IMG/VR virus record: IMGVR_UViG_3300042341_000189
Coordinates: 1 to 24,824 of that record
DNA: 24,824 bases
Source: a virus
Strand: one strand, 5' to 3'
The position numbers were made by a program, and so were the translations under genes. The notes beneath the pieces are model-generated. The model searched no databases. It saw only the letters and a list, made by a program, of their open reading frames with translations, and had not been told where the DNA came from. Of the stretch, positions 204-8,982 are shown piece after piece (positions within the stretch are counted from its first letter, which is position 1; every line of letters starts with the position of its first letter).

Positions 204-629
204 TTAGCCAGAAGTAATTACAGAATGATAATCAGATAATGAATAATCTTTTTCACCATTTACTGTGTAATGTCTATATATTCCTTTTGATTCAAGGCCT
301 GTTTTTATTGAATGGTGTGATTCGCACAGGCTTTGGAATATGTTTAATTTAAAGGCATATTCTCCAAGTGCAGACCATGCGAATAGATGATCGATATGGT
401 TTGCCTGTGTAATGTGGTTATTTAATAAACAGGCTTGGCAGAGTGGCTGTTTAGATAACTGAATGGCTCTCTGGGTTTGCCATGCTGCTGTCTTGTAGTG
501 GCTGTTAAACCTGTGCCTGTCCTGTGTGGTGGTCTTTGGTGGTGAATGCTCCACACAGAAGGCACTGCCTTTGATCGATGGCCGTTTGCAATGGTATTTA
601 TTGCACTGTGGTGGTGGTGTGCTTGGCAT
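204..629 (-). CDS. HNH endonuclease (terminase-associated type)
   Basis: A 141-residue HNH nuclease using the ATG at 629. A longer reading from GTG at 644 would start inside a DnaA-box word, so I prefer 629. An N-terminal Cys cluster (C9, C14, C25, H28) looks like a small zinc knuckle. The HNH core follows: C64-x2-C67, the NHIDH motif with D80/H81, N96, then C102 and H105/H106. In this family the DH pair, Asn and last His bind the metal and water for DNA nicking, and the Cys residues hold structural zinc. Small HNH proteins of this layout often sit beside terminase genes and help cut DNA during cos packaging. The gene is transcribed leftward, out of the window, which fits that position. A free-standing homing nuclease is the alternative. 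Confidence 0.85.
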   Translation of the reverse strand: MPSTPPPQCNKYHCKRPSIKGSAFCVEHSPPKTTTQDRHRFNSHYKTAAWQTQRAIQLSKQPLCQACLLNNHITQANHIDHLFAWSALGEYAFKLNIFQSLCESHHSIKTGLESKGIYRHYTVNGEKDYSLSDYHSVITSG

Positions 630-636
630 CTGCAAA

Positions 637-767
637 TTATGCACAGCTTATGCACACACAGGCAAGTTATCCACAGATGTGCAAGATATGGGCCTGACTT
701 ATACACAGATTGTCAGTCTTATAGAAGACTCAAATCTGTGGATTGATACCACTACTGGTGTGGATAA
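637..767. promoter_or_regulatory. Cluster of five DnaA-box words (candidate origin)
   Basis: Five exact matches to the DnaA-box consensus TTATNCACA lie within 131 bases: 637-645 and 648-656 (TTATGCACA), 667-675 (TTATCCACA), 699-707 (TTATACACA), and 759-767 on the opposite strand (TTATCCACA). The first two starts are 11 bases apart, about one helical turn. By chance such a word should occur far less than once in this length, so the cluster is real. It lies in the gap between the leftward HNH gene and the rightward operon. Plausible roles are a replication origin using host DnaA, or titration or regulation by DnaA. No AT-rich unwinding element is obvious. Confidence 0.7.
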
Positions 768-873
768 CTTTTTCTAAGGGGTAAGTATGGACAAAGCCAA
801 AAAGCGCTTAAAAGGCCTTTAAAAGGCTTCTGTGGGCCTGTGTGAGAAAGCCACATATAAGAGTAATTTCTTG

Positions 874-902
874 TTGATAACTTCCCTGTGCTGTGGCGTA
901 AT
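874..902 (+). promoter_or_regulatory. Putative sigma-70 promoter for the rightward operon
   Basis: A -35-like TTGATA (874-879) is followed after 17 bases by a -10-like CGTAAT (897-902). Transcription would start near 909, giving a leader of about 28 bases before the gene at 937. The -10 is poor (4/6), so the call rests on spacing and position. The gap also holds an 11-codon open frame (787-822) with AAGGGG in front of it, which could be a leader peptide. Confidence 0.35.
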
Positions 903-936: not shown

Positions 937-1182
937 ATGAAAACCTTCACTTATGCGCCCTTTCACTTCACCACTGGACGCACCTATGACACACCACAGG
1001 TGCTTTGGATTACTGTGGAAGACCAGACCACAGACAATTTCGGTATCGTTGATTTCACCGCCCGATTCGTTGACGAGTCGCGCCACATCTCTGGCCGGGT
1101 GGAAACTGTCTTGTTTCCCGGTGGCCTGATAGGTGAAGCTGTGCTGGCCGCATATGACGCTGGTCAATATTCCCCCCTGTAA
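937..1182 (+). CDS. Small hypothetical phage protein (81 aa)
   Basis: I do not recognise this 81-residue protein. It starts at ATG 937 behind a good ribosome binding site (AGGAG, 8 bases upstream) and is the first gene of the rightward operon that ends at the terminator 2790-2816. The sequence is mixed beta-like with hydrophobic and aromatic strands (VLWITVEDQ, FGIVDFTARFV) and ends in a Gly/Ala-containing helix-like stretch. It has no signal peptide, membrane segment or Cys pairs. Soluble, small and operon-leading, it is typical of phage early host-takeover or accessory genes, but no function can be assigned. Confidence 0.75.
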   Translation: MKTFTYAPFHFTTGRTYDTPQVLWITVEDQTTDNFGIVDFTARFVDESRHISGRVETVLFPGGLIGEAVLAAYDAGQYSPL

Positions 1183-1206: not shown

Positions 1207-1431
1207 ATGAAATACCAGTCAGCATTCAACGTCTGGGCCATGCCTGATGCCTTCTATAAGCACATCCAGCCCGGTCAATGGGTGTATGCAGGAGACAAGA
1301 CAAACAAGGGAATCTTCTTGGGTGTCAGGAAATCGGGCACTGTGGTGGTGGCTTGGTACATGAACGCCAAGAATCACAAATCCTTCAGAGACTATGTGAA
1401 GACCCTGCATAACTACGCCACAGGCAAATAA
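1207..1431 (+). CDS. Small hypothetical phage protein (74 aa)
   Basis: A 74-residue protein of unknown function. The start at 1207 is set by AAAGGAG seven bases upstream. It is basic and aromatic-rich. Its centre, with PGQWVYAGD followed by GIFLGVRKSGTVVVAW, resembles a small SH3-like beta barrel, but this is an impression and not a family match. Twenty-four bases separate it from the gene before and 22 from the gene after, so it is co-transcribed in the rightward operon. Confidence 0.75.
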   Translation: MKYQSAFNVWAMPDAFYKHIQPGQWVYAGDKTNKGIFLGVRKSGTVVVAWYMNAKNHKSFRDYVKTLHNYATGK

Positions 1432-1453: not shown

Positions 1454-1738
1454 ATGAAAGCATATAAGCACCTTGTTAAACACTCTCTCTCTATGGGTTG
1501 CGCTGTCTCTGTGTGGGATGGTGAAGAGTGGCAAGTAAAACGCAGCACAGCCTATCAGGCCATCATTGATGCCATTGAATCAGTGGAAGAGGCACAGTTA
1601 AGAATCAGGCAGCAAGACGCTGTTATCGGCTGGGCTTTGGTGTCTGCCTTTGGTCTTGAAGATGATGAAACGGTGGTAGATCACACTTGCACATCATTTA
1701 TGGAAGAGTGGTCAGAGATTTATTCAGAAACCATTTAA
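1454..1738 (+). CDS. Small hypothetical acidic phage protein (94 aa)
   Basis: A 94-residue protein that I do not recognise. AAAGGAG lies ahead of ATG 1454. The N-terminal third is a beta-like segment (GCAVSVWDGEEWQVKR). Residues from about 30 to 57 form a likely amphipathic helix rich in Ala, Glu and Gln. The C-terminus is strongly acidic (LEDDETVVD, then MEEWSEIYSE). Acidic small phage early proteins are often host-protein inhibitors or DNA mimics, but nothing here proves that. It is third in the rightward operon. Confidence 0.75.
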   Translation: MKAYKHLVKHSLSMGCAVSVWDGEEWQVKRSTAYQAIIDAIESVEEAQLRIRQQDAVIGWALVSAFGLEDDETVVDHTCTSFMEEWSEIYSETI

Positions 1739-1870: not shown

Positions 1871-2521
1871 ATGCAAAAAGTGATTATGTTAAAAAAAGAG
1901 GCTTCCATTATTAATGGTGGCTTAACCCAGACATCTAAGATGCCCTGTAAGTCTTATTCACTGCCTACACTGGCATGCAAGACAGGCTTCAAGATGGCAC
2001 AGATTAAAGGGAGCATCTGCTCCACCTGTTATGCAGACAAGGGCTTTTATTCAATGTATGCCAAGACTATTCAGCCTGCACAGCATGCCCGTTTAGATTC
2101 CCTGTCTAATGAATATTGGGTTCCTTCTATGGTGGCTTTAATTGGCTCTGATGCCTTTTTTAGATGGCACGATAGTGGAGACCTGCAAGGCCTTTGGCAT
2201 TTGGAGAAAATCGCTGCTGTGGCTGCTGCCACTCCTGACACCATGCACTGGCTGCCTACAAGAGAATATTCAATGATTAAAGAGTATGTGTCTAAATATG
2301 GCGCCATTCCTGATAATCTGATTATTCGGCTGTCTGCCATGTACCCAGACCAGCCTGTAAAAGTGCCTTCAAGCCTTCAAGGCATCAAAAATATTACTGT
2401 GTCTAATGTCCACACAAAAACCCCTATGGGTGAAGCATGCAAGGCACCACAGCAGGGTGGAGAGTGCAGAGAGTGCAGAGTTTGCTGGTCTGCTGTGCCT
2501 GTGTCTTATGAATTGCATTAA
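1871..2521 (+). CDS. Gp88-like Cys-rich phage protein of unknown function
   Basis: A 216-residue protein resembling the phage 'gene product 88' family, which is widespread and uncharacterised. The hallmarks are visible: C26, C36, then C50-x2-C53 followed by YADKGFY; a central HDSGD motif at 100-104; LPTRE around 128-132; and a C-terminal Cys cluster C190, C199, C202, C205 ending CRVCW. Four-plus-four Cys with a conserved His/Asp centre suggest a bound metal or iron-sulphur cluster. An older idea for such proteins is a radical-chemistry or metal enzyme, but no reaction is known to me. The start is ATG 1871, or the in-frame ATG at 1886; an AAGAGAAGA-type site precedes the first. It is the largest gene of the rightward operon and probably its main product. 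Confidence 0.8.
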   Translation: MQKVIMLKKEASIINGGLTQTSKMPCKSYSLPTLACKTGFKMAQIKGSICSTCYADKGFYSMYAKTIQPAQHARLDSLSNEYWVPSMVALIGSDAFFRWHDSGDLQGLWHLEKIAAVAAATPDTMHWLPTREYSMIKEYVSKYGAIPDNLIIRLSAMYPDQPVKVPSSLQGIKNITVSNVHTKTPMGEACKAPQQGGECRECRVCWSAVPVSYELH

Positions 2522-3058: not shown

Positions 3059-3074
3059 AAGTGAGTGCTCACTT
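3059..3074. promoter_or_regulatory. Second copy of the 16-bp palindrome, one central mismatch
   Basis: AAGTGAGTGCTCACTT differs from the copy at 2830-2845 only at one central base, so both half-sites AAGTGAG/CTCACTT are intact. The shared half-sites argue that one dimeric protein binds both and could loop the 230 bases between them. Confidence 0.6.
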
Positions 3075-3156
3075 GCAGTTTTGTAAGGATTGTAAGAAAA
3101 GGGGGGGTAAAAAAGTCCCTAAGCCAACTACGCATTTCGGAAAAAAAAATTGCAAG

Positions 3157-3436: not shown

Positions 3437-3826
3437 TTAGCTCAGACGGTTCAGCAGGAATTCGGTGTGGCGGCACAAAGCGGCGATTTCGTCCACGATG
3501 TTTTGCACTTCGCTCATTTGCGTGAAGCCGGGAGCGTGGCGGTACTTGTAGGTTTCGGCGTAAACGTAGCGCACAAGCTCCAGACCATTTTCCCCCAGAA
3601 AAAGTGCCTTCTCGCTGGAAATTATTTTGCCTTTTTCCAGCAGGACCGCTTCTACGAATGAATCAGCCAGATCGGACAGCTTGTCATAGAACTCGCCAAG
3701 GGCTTGGTGCTGGGCGTAGCTCTCTGTGTTCCAGTGATGGATGTGGGCGGCTGTCACGCCATGCAAAAGGCATACAGCATAGTCGCTGATGATGTCTGAC
3801 TTGGCTTCATTGATGGTGAATTTCAT
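3437..3826 (-). CDS. Dps/ferritin-like helical phage protein (DUF5856-like)
   Basis: A 129-residue, all-helical protein. The first part carries a pattern close to the Dps/mini-ferritin ferroxidase helices: H28, H30, H31-W32, H40, E45, D48, then D52, D55 and E59 in the segment EFYDKLSDLADSFVE. Phage proteins of this kind (DUF5856) are shorter than true Dps (about 160-170 aa) and their role is not established. Iron or DNA protection is an inference from the fold. The start is ATG 3826 with AAGGA in front. It is near the distal end of the middle operon. It could also be a helical scaffold without metal activity. Confidence 0.65.
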   Translation of the reverse strand: MKFTINEAKSDIISDYAVCLLHGVTAAHIHHWNTESYAQHQALGEFYDKLSDLADSFVEAVLLEKGKIISSEKALFLGENGLELVRYVYAETYKYRHAPGFTQMSEVQNIVDEIAALCRHTEFLLNRLS

Positions 3827-3838
3827 GGCAGCGTTCCT

Positions 3839-4234
3839 TTATTTGATTGTACCCAAGATGTGGTTCATGGCTTGTTGAAGAATGTCGGACGGTATTTTGG
3901 TCCACTTGTTGACGCAGATGTCGATGGCGTTGTCTATGGTGATGGTGTCTATCTTGCGCCAAGTGAACTTTCGCTCTGAGCAGGCAACCAGCACCAGCAT
4001 GGCCGAGCGCAGCTTTCTGTAGTCAATGGATTTTTCGTCTTTAATCAACTCAAAGGCATAGGCCATGATGAACACTGCGTCCGAGATGGGCATGATGTGC
4101 GCTCTTGCGTCTGCTCCTTCGTCCAGCATGAAAAGTTGGATTCTGTGTTCGACCATGCGCGTCTTGAGTTGCTGTGCTGCTACGGCCCGTGCAACAGGGT
4201 TTCTGGCTACCTTTTGCTCCTTGAGGACGATCAC
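3839..4234 (-). CDS. Conserved-type hypothetical phage protein (131 aa)
   Basis: A 131-residue protein that I do not recognise. It begins at GTG 4234, which overlaps the TGA of the previous gene (GTGA), behind a strong GGGGAG site. It is basic at the N-terminus (KEQKVARNPVARAVAAQQ) and mostly helical, with no membrane segment and no Cys pair. Its place in the replication/recombination operon suggests a DNA-metabolism accessory role, but that is context only. Confidence 0.75.
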   Translation of the reverse strand: MIVLKEQKVARNPVARAVAAQQLKTRMVEHRIQLFMLDEGADARAHIMPISDAVFIMAYAFELIKDEKSIDYRKLRSAMLVLVACSERKFTWRKIDTITIDNAIDICVNKWTKIPSDILQQAMNHILGTIK

Positions 4235-4566
4235 AGTGTCTCCCCAATCATGCGCTTGACGTTGAACATGTCTTTGTACATGGGGTATGTTTCCCTCCAG
4301 TGCCGAGCGTAGAAGGCAATGAAATCGTTGCTGATCTTGAATTCATTGCCCGTGGTCATAATGGATGTCTCCCAGCGGATGCGGTTGATGATGAGCCAGT
4401 GGCTGATCTTCTTTCGGTTCATCTTCACTGCTTGGAAGGCAAACTGCTCAAACATCTTCCAGACCATTGGGTTGGCCGTGTGCCATTCCAGCCACGCCTG
4501 CTTTTTTGCAAGGAAGTCTTGGTGCAAGGCCAACTGCAATTGGTTTTTGTGTTCTTCTCGGCTCAT
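4231..4566 (-). CDS. Conserved hypothetical phage protein (111 aa)
   Basis: A 111-residue soluble protein of a type I have seen often in phage replication regions but that has no known function. Typical features are the aromatic N-terminal helix (AWLEWHTANPMVWKMFEQFA) and the later segments INRIRWET, FKISNDFIAFYARHW and YPMYKDMF. ATG 4566 follows AGGGGGA and overlaps the previous stop (ATGA). The strongly helical, Trp/Arg-rich make-up suggests nucleic-acid or protein binding. Confidence 0.75.
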   Translation of the reverse strand: MSREEHKNQLQLALHQDFLAKKQAWLEWHTANPMVWKMFEQFAFQAVKMNRKKISHWLIINRIRWETSIMTTGNEFKISNDFIAFYARHWRETYPMYKDMFNVKRMIGETL

Positions 4567-4817
4567 GTGTTCCCCCTTGCTCGAATAGCTCGGACTACAC
4601 GCAATGTCAACTCATGGCTTGCGCCTAGCATTGCAACAACCGCTCTTTCAATAGCGATCTCACGCTCATCAGCACGGGCAAGGGCAACAAGGCGATTAAC
4701 TTCTTTAGTGATACACGCATTGGCAATGAAAATATCCTCTGGCACATGAGGCAAAAGCCCATGCGCCCGCATCGCTTCAAAGCCAGCCTCACGGGCCATG
4801 TCTATCGTGTCTCTCAT
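4563..4817 (-). CDS. Small hypothetical phage protein (84 aa)
   Basis: An 84-residue protein beginning MRDTIDMAREAGF at ATG 4817, chosen because AAAGGAG lies just upstream. A longer in-frame reading exists but overlaps the previous gene deeply. The N-terminal signature and the segment NRLVALARADEREIAIERAV resemble small proteins common in phages of Burkholderiales-like hosts; their function is unknown. The gene overlaps its neighbours at both ends by 4 bases. Confidence 0.7.
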   Translation of the reverse strand: MRDTIDMAREAGFEAMRAHGLLPHVPEDIFIANACITKEVNRLVALARADEREIAIERAVVAMLGASHELTLRVVRAIRARGNT

Positions 4818-5530
4818 GTGTTCTCCTTTTTGAGTTTGGCTTCGATGGCTCGGGCAAAGTAAAACTGGCTTGTCCAATCGCCACTCATCGTCTGCATTAC
4901 TTCCGCATCCGTCAGCCCAACCCATTGCCGCTGTGCTGTGGGCGGGGTGGTGTAAAGGGGTTCAACCCAACCCTTGTGGTTTGGATTGCGCTCGTTCCAT
5001 TCTTTGGCATAGCCCTCGTTCATGTCGTAGGTGCGATAGTCATATCCACCTTCACCGTCAAAAGTGCGCCACGCCACAGGCTCCTGCACAGGTGCTGGCT
5101 GTGCTGCGGGTGGGGTGGGGTAAAGTGCAAGATCAACGGTTTCTTTGAAGCATTTGTCAAAGAAGTCCTCATACAGCTTCTTCAATTCGGGGTGCATTCG
5201 TTTTTGCGCAGGCTCTGGAGGAGGTGCTTTGAAATACGCTGTTGCCGCTCCAACCCATCCCGGGGGGCGGGTAGGGCCATAATGCGCAACGCCAGAGTTG
5301 TTAAGACCATTAGTTCTTACCCAAACCACAGGCTCCTGCACAGGTGCTGAACGGGCTTGCTTGATGGCGGTGATGATCGGCTTGGCCTTTTCATCGAACT
5401 CACGCAGATCAACATAATCGCCCGTTGCCGTTGGCTCAAACTTGATAAAGATTTTTGATCGAACACCTTTGTATCGTTGCATAGTTTCAAAGAACTCAAG
5501 CGCTAAGTCGAGTGCTTCGTCTTTGGTCAT
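4814..5530 (-). CDS. Phage protein with repeated Pro-rich linkers (238 aa)
   Basis: A 238-residue mosaic protein starting MTKDEALDLALEFFETM at ATG 5530. Short modules are joined by Pro/Ala/Gln linkers: APVQEPVVW near residue 61, then PPAAQPAPVQEPVAW and LYTTPPTAQRQWVGLTDAE near the C-terminus. This architecture, with repeated QEPVAW and WVGLT motifs, is common in phages but has no established function. The linker is repeated at DNA level (24 identical bases at 5074-5097 and 5326-5349), so the protein has probably grown or shrunk by recombination. A longer upstream reading exists but would run into the 44-residue gene. Confidence 0.7.
   Translation of the reverse strand: MTKDEALDLALEFFETMQRYKGVRSKIFIKFEPTATGDYVDLREFDEKAKPIITAIKQARSAPVQEPVVWVRTNGLNNSGVAHYGPTRPPGWVGAATAYFKAPPPEPAQKRMHPELKKLYEDFFDKCFKETVDLALYPTPPAAQPAPVQEPVAWRTFDGEGGYDYRTYDMNEGYAKEWNERNPNHKGWVEPLYTTPPTAQRQWVGLTDAEVMQTMSGDWTSQFYFARAIEAKLKKENT
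5074..5349. repeat. 24-bp direct repeat inside the linker-rich gene
   Basis: Bases 5074-5097 and 5326-5349 are identical over 24 positions and encode the linker PVQEPV in the same frame. Their spacing is 252 bases (84 codons), so recombination between the copies would delete a module without shifting the frame. Confidence 0.8.
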
Positions 5531-5661
5531 GGCTTCCACCCCATTCCAATTGCCGATGTTACGATCAGCGTGACGCAGCCTCCGATTTGGGCAAGATGTT
5601 TTGGCATGTGCGGCGCAAACCAAATGCAACTTGCCAATACAAGAAATTGTTGGTCAGTCAT
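5527..5661 (-). CDS. 44-residue small membrane protein
   Basis: A 44-codon frame from ATG 5661 with GAGGAGAAAG upstream. Its TGA overlaps the next start (ATGA at 5530). The sequence has one or two hydrophobic stretches (FLVLASCIWFA and GGCVTLIVTSAIGMGW), so it is probably membrane-associated. I do not recognise it. The strong ribosome site and 4-base overlaps at both ends argue that it is translated. Confidence 0.6.
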   Translation of the reverse strand: MTDQQFLVLASCIWFAPHMPKHLAQIGGCVTLIVTSAIGMGWKP

Positions 5662-5822
5662 AGCTTTCTCCTCGCTTTGCACTTGTTTTGCTCTGGTTGC
5701 GCCAACTCTTGGCAGTCTGTTGGGTTGTTCGTCCTCGGTGCGTACATAAACACCAGCGTAAGGGCCACAACCCAGATTGCAATGGCAATGGTCAAATAGA
5801 TGTGGGTCTTAAACAAGAGCAT
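5658..5822 (-). CDS. 54-residue N-anchored membrane protein
   Basis: 54 codons from ATG 5822, overlapping the previous gene's end and sharing ATGA with the next start. A short charged N-terminus is followed by a hydrophobic helix (about residues 9-27) and a polar, basic tail with two Cys that would face the periplasm or cytoplasm. AGGAG touches the ATG, so the TTG two codons later (5816), with better spacing, is an alternative start. The function is unknown. The layout, one N-terminal anchor and a short tail, is like a small inner-membrane accessory protein. Confidence 0.5.
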   Translation of the reverse strand: MLLFKTHIYLTIAIAIWVVALTLVFMYAPRTNNPTDCQELAQPEQNKCKARRKL

Positions 5823-5913
5823 CTCCTACGCTGTCACGCTTTTGTTGCTCGTATTGCTTGATCTGCTCTGGTGTCCAAGGCACAGGACCAGTTACTGGAG
5901 GAAAGGGCCACAT
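5809..5913 (-). CDS. 34-residue Pro-rich small protein
   Basis: 34 codons from ATG 5913, starting one base after the stop of the previous gene and ending inside the start of the next. The sequence opens MWPFPPVTGPVPWTPEQ and then turns helical and charged. A weak AAGGG site lies upstream. Its composition (Trp/Pro N-terminus then Gln/Lys helix) and tight packing suggest a real small gene, but I cannot name it. A much longer in-frame reading reaches 6129 and would overlap the gene before it. Confidence 0.45.
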   Translation of the reverse strand: MWPFPPVTGPVPWTPEQIKQYEQQKRDSVGDALV

Positions 5914-5914
5914 G

Positions 5915-6169
5915 TCATGTACCCTTTGTGCCCCAATCGGGCATTGATTCTTTGGCCGCAAGCGCTTCAAGCTGGACGTACAGATTGTCCAAACCGGGAT
6001 CGCCAAAGCTGCGGCTGCAATAGTGCGACCAAAACCAAGTGGCTTCTTCCCACAGGCAATCTTTGAAAAGCCTGTCACGCACAAATGCGCCGGGGCTGTT
6101 AGGCATGTACAGCTTTTTGCTGTCTTCAATTTCGGCTCTCATGGCCGCTGCAATGGCTTCGTAGTTCAT
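5915..6169 (-). CDS. Small acidic hypothetical protein (84 aa)
   Basis: An 84-residue protein from ATG 6169, which overlaps the HNH stop (ATGA). An in-frame GTG 27 bases earlier is less likely. It is helical with conserved-looking aromatic positions (LWEEATWFWSHYCSRSF) and an acidic C-terminus. There is no membrane segment. I do not recognise a family; its position directly after the HNH nuclease in the recombination module is the only clue. Confidence 0.65.
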   Translation of the reverse strand: MNYEAIAAAMRAEIEDSKKLYMPNSPGAFVRDRLFKDCLWEEATWFWSHYCSRSFGDPGLDNLYVQLEALAAKESMPDWGTKGT

Positions 6170-6435
6170 TTCTGTCCTGTCTTGTTTAGTGTCCACTCAA
6201 GCAGTTCTTGCTGAGTGATGTCATAGTAGTCAACAAATCCCTTGCTGCCTAGCCCGTGAAAACCCTTATTGCCACGGTGATGTTCTACGCATAGCGGGAT
6301 CAATGTCTTGTAGTCGCCTTTACCCCATCCCCCTGCTCTGAGGTGGTGAAGCTCGACAGGACCGGGTTCGTGGTCGCCATAGAGGTGATGGCACAAAGCG
6401 CATCCAAGGCTTGCCACTTTGCCCTTGTGGATCAT
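6166..6435 (-). CDS. Ref/YbcO-like HNH nuclease
   Basis: An 89-residue protein from ATG 6435, set by the upstream gene ending two bases before. The core holds C12-x2-C15, the motif PVELHHLRAG, then IPLCVEHH and GFHGLGSKGF. This matches small HNH nucleases of the Ref/YbcO type that phages carry in lambda nin-like regions, where they act with NinB and resolvases in recombination or end processing. C-terminally it keeps a short helix (QQELLEWTL). It is close to the minimal length for the family and lies directly after NinB, the same order as in nin-type regions. Confidence 0.8.
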   Translation of the reverse strand: MIHKGKVASLGCALCHHLYGDHEPGPVELHHLRAGGWGKGDYKTLIPLCVEHHRGNKGFHGLGSKGFVDYYDITQQELLEWTLNKTGQK

Positions 6436-6436
6436 T

Positions 6437-6748
6437 TCAGCGCTCTTCAATCTTGACTCCGTTGGTGTTGGCCCAATACAGCAACCATTCGGTGAAGCTG
6501 ATGGCTTGCTCTTTGGTGAACCTGCGGCTTTGGTGGCCGAGTTGGACAATGCGTTCGCCATCAATGCTTGGCATGACCTTGCTGATGGTTGACATGTGGC
6601 CGCTTTCGTGTGCCCACTGGTCGATCAGAAAGCGCTTCCACGACTCTTGATTCCATCTGCTGCCATGAAGCTGGCTTTGCTTGGCGATCTGCCCGATGAT
6701 GCTGTGGTACAGCTTTTCCTGCTCACGGCTTTTCATGTCAGGAGCCAT
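6437..6748 (-). CDS. ninB: NinB-like recombination protein
   Basis: A 103-residue protein matching NinB (lambda Orf), a single-strand DNA and SSB-binding recombination mediator that supports RecA loading. Visible family features are SREQEKLYHSIIGQIA at the N-terminus, the central WKRFLIDQWAHE, the PSIDGERIVQLGHQSRRFTKEQA block and a C-terminal aromatic helix (FTEWLLYWANTNGV). ATG 6748 has AGGA nine bases upstream, and it overlaps the resolvase gene by 11 bases. Lambda Orf is longer (146 aa), so this is a compact version. Confidence 0.85.
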   Translation of the reverse strand: MAPDMKSREQEKLYHSIIGQIAKQSQLHGSRWNQESWKRFLIDQWAHESGHMSTISKVMPSIDGERIVQLGHQSRRFTKEQAISFTEWLLYWANTNGVKIEER

Positions 6749-7166
6749 TGTGATTCCTCAGTTGCCAAGCCACCATTGCTGCGTCACGCTCATGTTGGTT
6801 TGACCTATGCTCCCATCCTGTAAACAAGTTGAAGTCCTCTGAGTTCATCTTTGCACCTTTGGCTTTTGGGCTGACTCGCATGAACCTGATTTCCCAACGT
6901 CTGCAAATTTCCTCTATCAACGAACACAACGCATCAACCTGCCCAATCTTCCGAGCAATGTTGTTTGCCACAGCCTTGTTTTTTGATGGAACCCACACAG
7001 CGCTTTGCAGGCGGCTATCTTCAAACACAATCAGGTCTGCAAATGACCTTTTGACGCAATCTTGGATGTCGATGGGTTGAATGGTCTGCAATGACAACAG
7101 CTTGCCATTGGTGAACAGGGCAACGCCTGTGTTGACTCCGGGATCAATCCCGATTACTTGTTTCAT
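6738..7166 (-). CDS. RuvC-like Holliday-junction resolvase
   Basis: 142 residues with a RuvC/RNase H-like fold. Strand one carries GIDPGVNTG with catalytic D8. E49 follows in VFED. The end has HERDAAMVAW with D128, matching the last acidic site. These would bind two Mg ions to cut four-way junctions symmetrically. Phages use such enzymes to debranch DNA before packaging. The start is ATG 7166, which overlaps the previous stop (ATGA) and has GGAG upstream. The lengthy basic segment SPKAKGAKMN fits DNA binding. Confidence 0.85.
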   Translation of the reverse strand: MKQVIGIDPGVNTGVALFTNGKLLSLQTIQPIDIQDCVKRSFADLIVFEDSRLQSAVWVPSKNKAVANNIARKIGQVDALCSLIEEICRRWEIRFMRVSPKAKGAKMNSEDFNLFTGWEHRSNQHERDAAMVAWQLRNHNGS

Positions 7167-7372
7167 TCCAATTCTCCGTCTTGTAGTTTCTTCATGTATC
7201 CACGGATACGGGCAACCGAGCCTGTTCCGTACCTTCTCTCAAGCCATTCAATGCGAACTGGCGTAAGAACCTTTTGGCCTGTCGATTCGTAAGTCCTGTA
7301 CAGAACTCGCGCTTCACCAAGCTCAATCATGTACCTTTCGCCTTCATCGCTAACTGCTCTGCGTGTCATCAT
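7163..7372 (-). CDS. Small hypothetical protein (69 aa)
   Basis: A 69-residue protein. ATG 7372 is preferred because it forms an ATGA overlap with the winged-helix gene before it; ATG 7384 and 7369 are also in frame. It is rich in Arg and Glu. Its centre (TPVRIEWLERRYGTGSVARIRGYMKKL) looks like a helix-turn-helix or basic helical DNA-binding patch, though no family is recognised. It lies between a winged-helix protein and the resolvase. Confidence 0.65.
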   Translation of the reverse strand: MMTRRAVSDEGERYMIELGEARVLYRTYESTGQKVLTPVRIEWLERRYGTGSVARIRGYMKKLQDGELE

Positions 7373-7536
7373 GTCAACGTCCATTTGCCGTTTTCACGCT
7401 TGATTGCGTGAATTTCGGAAAGGTATTGCAGCACAGAATTAACATGCGCTTTTGTCCAGCCAGTGATCTCAAGAATCTCTTGGCGTTTGAGTGCGCCATG
7501 CTCAAGAAGCTTTTTCAGTGCGTAAGATTTGGTCAT
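7369..7536 (-). CDS. 55-residue winged helix-turn-helix protein
   Basis: A 55-codon frame from ATG 7536, overlapping the replication gene's TGA (ATGA), with GAGGAAAG upstream. The layout is a winged helix: helix 1 (SYALKKLLEHGAL), a turn into KRQEILEITGW, recognition helix TKAHVNSVLQYLSEI, and a short wing (AIKRENGKWTLT). It is probably a small DNA-binding regulator or replication accessory. The gene is well supported by overlaps at both ends. Confidence 0.7.
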   Translation of the reverse strand: MTKSYALKKLLEHGALKRQEILEITGWTKAHVNSVLQYLSEIHAIKRENGKWTLT

Positions 7537-8306
7537 GCTTTCCTCAGTACAGAGTTGATTTGTTGACGGATGCTTTCAGGGATTGGAGCAGCCTTTTTGC
7601 GATCTGCCTCAATTTTCAGCAACTCAGGGTCAGGACCAGAGTGTTTGGCAGGGACTGTTGTTCGGGCAACGTCAGCGGCTTGCTGGGCATAGGATTGCTT
7701 GGGGGCCACCCACTCAGCCTTGAACCCTCGCCATCCACGGGCCGCACACTCTGCCAAAGCCTTCTCAAGCGTCCAGCCTGCCAGCTTTGCCTGTTCGGCA
7801 ATGCTGTTGACAACCACGGGGGTGATGATGGCTCTGGCGGTCTTCCTTTGTTTGACAAAAGAATCCCAAACCTCTGGTGACACGCCTTCAGGCGCGGCAA
7901 CGACAGTTGCCTTCTCTTTCTTTGTTTCTTGTTTATTGGTTATTGGTTCTTGTTTATTGTTTGGTTGAACGTCCGTTGGACGGGCGTTGTTCCTGCGTTC
8001 AGCAGATGCCTTACCTGCGCGTGACGCTTGTTCGATTTTCGAGTGAAAGTGGGCAATTTCCTTGTCGGCACGGCTGCTTGCATAGCCTTCTTCCGTGTGT
8101 TCAAAGAACTCATTGAGGACATCCCGGACAAGTGCGGCGTGGTCTCGCATACCGATCTGCTTGGCGACAACTGAAGCGTCATTGCTCAGTGGCTTTTCGT
8201 GCAGGTAGTACAGGTCCAGAAGCCTGCGATACGCCAAGTCCTCAAGCAAGTCGAGGTGACGGGTATGGGACGCATAGTCCCCAATGTTGAATTGGTAGTA
8301 GTGCAT
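7533..8306 (-). CDS. DUF1376-type phage replication protein
   Basis: A 257-residue protein with an N-terminal DUF1376 (YdaU-like) domain. Its first 50 residues hold the diagnostic pattern YYQFNIGDYASHTRHLDL followed by EDLAYRRLLDLYY. A Lys/Gln/Thr-rich linker (about 105-135) leads to a C-terminal part with EVWDSFVKQRKTARA and WTLEKALAECAARGWRGFKAEW, the helical tail found in phage replisome organisers that helps load the host helicase. ATG 8306 is used with AAGG upstream; an earlier TTG is in frame. Putative promoter 8404-8433 lies in front. This is the likely initiator or helicase-loading protein and thus the functional partner of an origin. Confidence 0.8.
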   Translation of the reverse strand: MHYYQFNIGDYASHTRHLDLLEDLAYRRLLDLYYLHEKPLSNDASVVAKQIGMRDHAALVRDVLNEFFEHTEEGYASSRADKEIAHFHSKIEQASRAGKASAERRNNARPTDVQPNNKQEPITNKQETKKEKATVVAAPEGVSPEVWDSFVKQRKTARAIITPVVVNSIAEQAKLAGWTLEKALAECAARGWRGFKAEWVAPKQSYAQQAADVARTTVPAKHSGPDPELLKIEADRKKAAPIPESIRQQINSVLRKA

Positions 8307-8403
8307 TATCAACCTTACTTCATCGGTTCACTTCACTGAAGAAACATTGGCAGGACGGTGAAGAATCGTCTTTTCAGGAGCTACCCTAGCCATGTCTCAT
8401 AAA

Positions 8404-8433
8404 ACTATACCACCATTCAGGCTCGGCTGTAAA
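8404..8433 (-). promoter_or_regulatory. Putative sigma-70 promoter before the replication gene
   Basis: On the minus strand a -35-like TTTACA (8433-8428) and a -10-like TATAGT (8409-8404) are separated by 18 bases; each matches the consensus at 5 of 6 positions. It overlaps the 3' end of the preceding gene and faces the 110-base gap before the DUF1376 gene. Confidence 0.4.
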
Positions 8434-8818
8434 TGGTGATGGGTTTGTTCTGATGGTACTTTTGAGTCATCCGAGCAATCTCGCTTTTGTCAAACATGCT
8501 CTTGGTTGACGCAGACAGGTCAAAGGCATTGCCTCTGGACTTGGGTGTCCCATCTTCCCATTTGTCTGCCACAATGGCTGGCAACTTTTGGTCTGGCACT
8601 TTCATCTTCTTGTTTGTCAGCTTGTAGTAATGATGGATTTTGCGTGTTGCTGCATTACGCTTTGTGTGAGACAACTCAATCAATCCTTCTGCCAGCAGCG
8701 CTTCTTTGATGGCTGATGGAGAGGTTGTGTAGCGGTGGCTTATCCTGTTTGCAAGCCCTCTTTGAGACAGAGGGCCGTTCTCCAAGCATTTCAAGAAGAA
8801 CTGTTTTTCTTGTAGCAT
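8417..8818 (-). CDS. Winged-helix regulator (133 aa)
   Basis: A 133-residue protein from ATG 8818, chosen for AAAAAGGAAG ahead of it. An upstream in-frame reading would overlap the previous gene more than needed. Residues 1-70 form a MarR-like winged helix: KQFFLKCLENGPLSQRGLANRI, then SPSAIKEALLAEGLIELSH as the recognition helix and wing. The C-terminal half is basic and polar (KMKVPDQKLPAIV, STKSMFDKSEIARMTQKYH) and may mediate multimerisation or partner binding. It is probably a transcription regulator of the middle operon; replication function is an alternative. Confidence 0.7.
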   Translation of the reverse strand: MLQEKQFFLKCLENGPLSQRGLANRISHRYTTSPSAIKEALLAEGLIELSHTKRNAATRKIHHYYKLTNKKMKVPDQKLPAIVADKWEDGTPKSRGNAFDLSASTKSMFDKSEIARMTQKYHQNKPITIYSRA

Positions 8819-8982
8819 ATTTCCACTTCCTTTTTGGTGATGATTTCGATTGATCGGGTCAGGATTGCCACGGCTGCGGCATCCCAGTCTCCGGGGTGAG
8901 GGCAATTGGTGTAAGCCTCAAGCATGGTGAAATCTCGGATGGTCCATGCTGAGTCTTCTTCAAGTTGGTCTGGTGTTTTCAT
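8791..8982 (-). CDS. Small hypothetical protein, first gene of the leftward operon
   Basis: A 63-residue protein from ATG 8982 (an in-frame TTG sits two codons upstream). It is acidic at first (MKTPDQLEEDSAW) and then helical. It contains PHPGDWDAAAVAILTRS, which suggests a small alpha-helical fold, and ends in a lysine-rich tail (KKEVEICYKKNSSS). I do not recognise it. It overlaps the winged-helix gene by 28 bases and is the most upstream gene of the leftward operon. Confidence 0.65.
   Translation of the reverse strand: MKTPDQLEEDSAWTIRDFTMLEAYTNCPHPGDWDAAAVAILTRSIEIITKKEVEICYKKNSSS

Follow-up and report, generated by a model that had tools for sequence, protein, structure and literature searches.

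Iteron origins with DnaA boxes are known from plasmids and phage-plasmids, the P1 oriR type being the example. Limnohabitans phage DC31 and phages of its type resemble these origins in carrying ~20 bp iterons, AT-rich repeats and DnaA boxes in a row; the locus described here differs in that the window (the whole analysed stretch of virus DNA, 24,824 bases) is without iterons, no ParB_N domain is found in the carriers, and no initiator was identified. Bacterial oriC and other DnaA-dependent origins (BUS architecture, PMC8287927) share with our locus an intergenic cluster of DnaA boxes, in some carriers with an AT-rich repeat or a skew minimum alongside, but the phage module has no sequence match to Burkholderiales genomes and does not lie beside dnaA. 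The terminal repeats of T5-like phages likewise hold non-coding DnaA boxes in lytic phages and gave short, weak matches (18–19% of the query); they have, however, no palindrome or tail and are not homologous over the module. For Pseudomonas phage PseuGes_254, a putative origin with DnaA boxes and AT-repeats was predicted by Ori-Finder (PMC11512268); unlike the present module, this is a software prediction only, with no palindrome described and no conservation across phages. Nothing matching on phage DnaA origins or DnaA decoys was found in the searched open-licence literature, and DnaA is not mentioned in the DC31 paper. Clusters of DnaA boxes in phages are known but scattered; the parts of the module are known, and the same literature yielded no case of DnaA boxes combined with a host metabolic operator.

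The DnaA-box cluster and its gene surroundings

Exact TTATNCACA words were located at 637, 648, 667 and 699 (plus strand) and at 759 (minus strand); the original prediction of five boxes in 131 bases was right in every coordinate and strand. Word counting, which had been proposed as a check, gave zero further copies outside 637–767 in the record. Shuffled records of 24.8 kb contained on average 0.84 such words (maximum 3), and five or more in the given 131 bp have p ~1.5e-14 under a dinucleotide model; the density is indeed far above chance. Several near-consensus boxes in one cluster, unique within the record, are what is looked for in an oriC-like origin.

Box 1 (637..645, +; TTATGCACA) is followed after 11 bp by box 2 (648..656, +; TTATGCACA), then by box 3 (667..675, +; TTATCCACA) and a conserved spacer (681..697, +; GCAAGATATGGGCCTGA, GCAAGTATCATGCCAGA in relatives). 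Box 4 (699..707, +; TTATACACA) is the left partner of an inverted pair about the central palindrome (716..729; GTCTTATAGAAGAC); the right partner is a degenerate box (737..745, −; CAATCCACA, two mismatches to TTATCCACA), which in most relatives not of the window type is an intact TTATCCACA or similar. Box 5 (759..767, −; TTATCCACA) is contained in a conserved tail (749..786, +; CCACTACTGGTGTGGATAACTTTTTCTAAGGGGTAAGT). The cluster is lengthened by the degenerate box at 737–745 and by a second one with one mismatch (872..880, −; TTATCAACA); intact boxes stand at the equivalent positions in relatives, three of which (L005, L008, L009) have an exact box at about the same distance as the latter.

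The module sits between the packaging and early operons, both pointing away from it. The first packaging-side gene, transcribed away from the module, encodes an HNH endonuclease (204..629, −; ATG start at 629; an alternative GTG start at 644 would overlap box 1). Beyond the same gene in G403 (40.9 kb), the nearest circular relative, come the small terminase, a 559-aa ORF, portal and major head, which bears out the earlier placing of the cluster at the packaging end. Rightward small genes span 937–2778 and comprise the first ORF downstream of the module (937..1182, +), a small conserved ORF (phrog_21585; 1207..1431, +), an ORF in which the second piece of the DC31 DNA match lies (1454..1738, +) and a GP88-family ORF (1871..2521, +), which served to find relatives; small ORFs of different lineages, similarly spaced to the right of the module, group into a protein cluster. 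A minus-strand block (3437–8905) carries a Holliday-junction-resolvase-like protein and the DUF1376/primosomal replication protein (7533..8312, −), the latter ~6.8 kb from the module and hence several kb away, as had been noted; plus-strand genes, Gp157-like and MazG-like ones among them, follow, then lysis and tail genes. The circular relative G403 encodes a replication-initiation/primosomal-like protein, and a BLAST comparison with the polymerase and primase-helicase of other lineages gave no homologue of either in it.

Two further stretches of the window were noted. An AT-rich two-copy repeat with 21-bp spacing (7922–7962) lies within the DUF1376 gene and may be an alternative origin inside the replication gene; an iteron origin within 3.4–9.5 kb was rejected, as this region holds no array and two-copy repeats only. 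At 5068–5118, pieces of 34–50 bp are 96–100% identical to stretches without annotated genes in the spring-water phage records MW202484 and MW202867.

A conserved module around a host-type palindrome

On blastn of the first 3 kb of the window a single phage record was matched, that of Limnohabitans phage DC31, one piece covering the boxes (667–787) and another lying further right; identity over the module, intergenic DNA, was 71–81%. For Curvibacter phage P26059A a match to part of the module was obtained, again in intergenic DNA, and the host of the window's freshwater phage is inferred from these two phages. Viral-contig relatives found through the GP88 protein had the same cluster in 8/8 cases (L005–L012), two of them (L011, L012) as a mirrored variant with an additional inverted box upstream. 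Taken as the union of a palindrome-based and a palindrome-free scan, together with relatives, the ~150 bp module was found at no fewer than 44 distinct phage loci, including DC31 and P26059A. Sequences from the palindrome-based scan conserve the palindrome by the way they were selected, a bias of which the protein-found and palindrome-free sets are free; in the palindrome-free scan GTCTTATATAAGA was present in 23 of 24 matches though absent from the pattern. In an alignment of 30 sequences (A2) a box is separated by 6–8 bp from the palindrome, which is followed after 7–10 bp by an inverted box and, ~11 bp further on, by a second inverted box and then CTTTTTCTAAGGGG; the palindrome GTCTTATATAAGA is thus flanked by boxes of opposite orientation. 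Because the cluster has been kept as one block across unrelated phages, its conservation shows, on comparative grounds, that it is functional. In one contig (G413, end/start) an array of 49-bp repeats, each with CTTATATAAG, was seen ~1.4 kb after the module.

The central palindrome, common with a host metabolic operator, had been missed when the boxes were first noticed. The published site of SdhR, from a paper on GntR regulators, is TCTTATGTCTTATATAAGACATAAGA (PMC4494728); the phage palindrome GTCTTATATAAGA equals the core of this operator of a host TCA-cycle regulator. The 14-bp core, GTCTTATATAAGA(C), is identical in nearly all phage modules (with C or G as the last base in the window's relatives), but the outer TCTTAT/ATAAGA arms of the host operator are in phages usually replaced by flanks running into DnaA boxes. 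The core GTCTTATATAAGAC, as it stands beside mdh/gntR/sdhC/acnB, is present in relatives; the window differs by one mismatch, GTCTTATAGAAGAC agreeing with it at 13/14 positions. Among 150 Burkholderiales genomes GTCTTATATAAGA was found in 69, vs ~5 for the reversed pattern, and 22/30 of the sites sampled lie at mdh|gntR-sdhC (20/30) or acnB (2/30), the adjoining regulator having GntR and UTRA domains. No GntR protein above cut-off was detected in the scanned phages, and the binder of the palindrome would therefore be a host protein; a phage-encoded GntR or ParB was rejected as the binder, none being above cut-off in the scanned carriers. Given the host sites beside TCA genes, the GntR/UTRA regulator next to them and the lack of a phage GntR, the palindrome is very probably readable by host SdhR. 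In a Burkholderiales MAG (L178:5550–5600) TTATCCACA stands beside CTCTTATATAAGACTC upstream of atpI, a box-palindrome pair as in phages.

Other sites of host type gather near the modules. Sites of the form ACTGTN8ACAGT, which we take to be LexA-type, occur 9 times within 500 bp of the 44 modules and twice elsewhere (permuted arms, maximum 3), and those near the DnaA cluster are in L208, L210, L212, L216, L217, L218 and L270; exact palindromes TGAGAATCATTCTCA, presumably of Fur type, occur 6 times within 500 bp and 0 times elsewhere (permuted arms, maximum 1), the carriers being L209, L212, L216, L217, L218 and L271. These counts are to be read with the caveats that some of the phages are related, that coding DNA makes up most of the far set and that several motifs were noticed before testing; both types were recovered without prior motifs by de novo palindrome counting, and the FNR and CRP patterns, taken as negative controls, gave no enrichment near modules. 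Sites that we regard as parS-like (TGTTCCACGTGAAACA or one mismatch) were found in L212 (~3063–3078), L217 and L218, only beside the module and ~100–140 bp from the palindrome; no ParB_N domain was found in the module carriers, these three contigs included. Two sites assumed to be NrdR-like (ACACTATAGGTAGTGT), 32 bp apart, precede the palindrome of L269 by 231 and 199 bp. The motif GGGTTTACCCTA is ~17-fold enriched near modules, in many within ~300 bp. The window has no extra site of LexA, Fur, parS or NrdR-like type.

Origin, promoter region or decoy

The original prediction offered a second origin, a DnaA-dependent promoter control or a decoy titrating host DnaA; a functional module emerged, with support for an origin in relatives, and the window itself has neither an iteron nor a clear skew minimum. 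We give even chances to the cluster being the DnaA-binding core of a conserved phage module that acts as a host-DnaA-dependent origin or control element. Evidence for an origin comes from DC31-type phages, in which ~20-bp iterons (DC31, G410, G412, G414, G415, G418) and AT-rich ATATAAGC-type repeats adjoin the boxes directly; next to the boxes of the window no iteron was found, and its least stable 60 bp, considered as an unwinding element, are not exceptional (p 0.08–0.12). The cumulative GC-skew minimum lies 195–289 bp from the module in G416, G417, G419 and G426 (records of ~26–40 kb), ~640 bp away and weak in G403/G404, and 13–17 kb away in 76–84 kb phages; in the ~38 kb phages skew is confounded by gene direction. 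In the DC31 record the module is at ~20.2–20.35 kb and the skew minimum at ~35 kb, close to the polymerase operon. The skew analysis proposed for the window revealed no clear minimum at the module, the 24.8 kb fragment being itself uninformative. The ~38 kb and ~80 kb carriers have a primase-helicase and a polymerase of their own, which normally have no need of DnaA, and this was counted against a DnaA-dependent origin, as were the mismatch in the window's palindrome and its degenerate inner right-hand box.

Since many carriers have their own replisome and the module lies between divergent operons, promoter control has to be reckoned with: the module would then be a divergent promoter/operator region and not an origin, at which host DnaA, SdhR and, in some lineages, LexA/Fur/NrdR serve as transcription factors setting early-operon expression. 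The gene order fits, packaging genes and early/replication genes standing on opposite sides, both directed away from the module, in the window and G403, in G416 and in L217, as do the small ORFs on the right common to several lineages, the strong enrichment of LexA and Fur operators within 500 bp and the very different replisomes of the carriers. We nevertheless consider this rather unlikely, as no sigma-70 match beyond chance was found at the boxes, iterons, AT-rich repeats beside boxes and parS sites are unusual for promoters, and dense, phased box arrays are more origin-like. Origin and promoter roles may also coexist at the module. Titration, by which the multiplying phage DNA would soak up host DnaA (with SdhR, Fur, LexA and ParB), halt host replication and distort host regulation, would be independent of the phage replisome type and would explain why high-affinity consensus sites of several host proteins are clustered together, in positions varying by lineage; it appears improbable, because ~5 boxes per genome are few, the module always occupies a single place between operons, and a sponge needs neither a fixed box-palindrome-box geometry nor a conserved tail.

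That a structured RNA or a coding sequence is conserved for another reason, with the box words as by-products, is hardly credible. Folding of the strand is somewhat more favourable than that of shuffled sequences (z −1.9), and ORFs cross the module; an RNA element was nonetheless ruled out by the lack of covariation, consensus folding of 30 sequences giving no compensatory pair with both sides changed, and of any Rfam match, and coding by the ORF across the cluster (526–777) having no family match and by a short frame after AAGGGG in close relatives of the window being, by eye, broken in others. A copied host oriC was rejected, the module being absent by BLAST or profile from 399 Burkholderiales genomes; the best host scores with the module profile (R1) were ≤20 bits vs 81–93 for phages, and 30 Burkholderiales dnaA loci had 0–3 exact boxes each and no palindrome. 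A plasmid-derived origin was discarded as well, just two matches being obtained, short, weak and unrelated.

If the boxes form the DnaA-binding core of a phage origin, host DnaA would assemble on the boxes and open the DNA there, and phage replication would start early in infection. In phages of the window type their DUF1376/primosomal protein would help to load the host replisome; other lineages would load a primase-helicase of their own at the module. Host SdhR, a GntR/HutC regulator of TCA-cycle genes, would bind the central palindrome and compete or cooperate with the two flanking DnaA molecules, and firing would track the energy state of the host. In the window phage, whose operator is degenerate by one base, SdhR control may for this reason be weak or lost.

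Implications for freshwater phages

With more reserve we entertain, as a tentative and wider reading, one intergenic hub that would read several signals of host state: DnaA (replication), SdhR (TCA cycle) and, depending on the lineage, LexA (DNA damage), Fur (iron), NrdR (dNTPs) and ParB (parS). Palindrome operators gathered round a DnaA core common to phages with different replisomes would in this way decide when to replicate or to switch on early genes. The module is directly testable in cultured phages, e.g. Limnohabitans phage DC31, and its sequence can serve as a DNA signature in searches for phages that infect freshwater Burkholderiales. If the proposal is true, the module links virus replication or early expression to the carbon and energy state of the host, in phages with and without their own replisome; its carriers may use it to couple their replication or early genes to the condition of the host cell.
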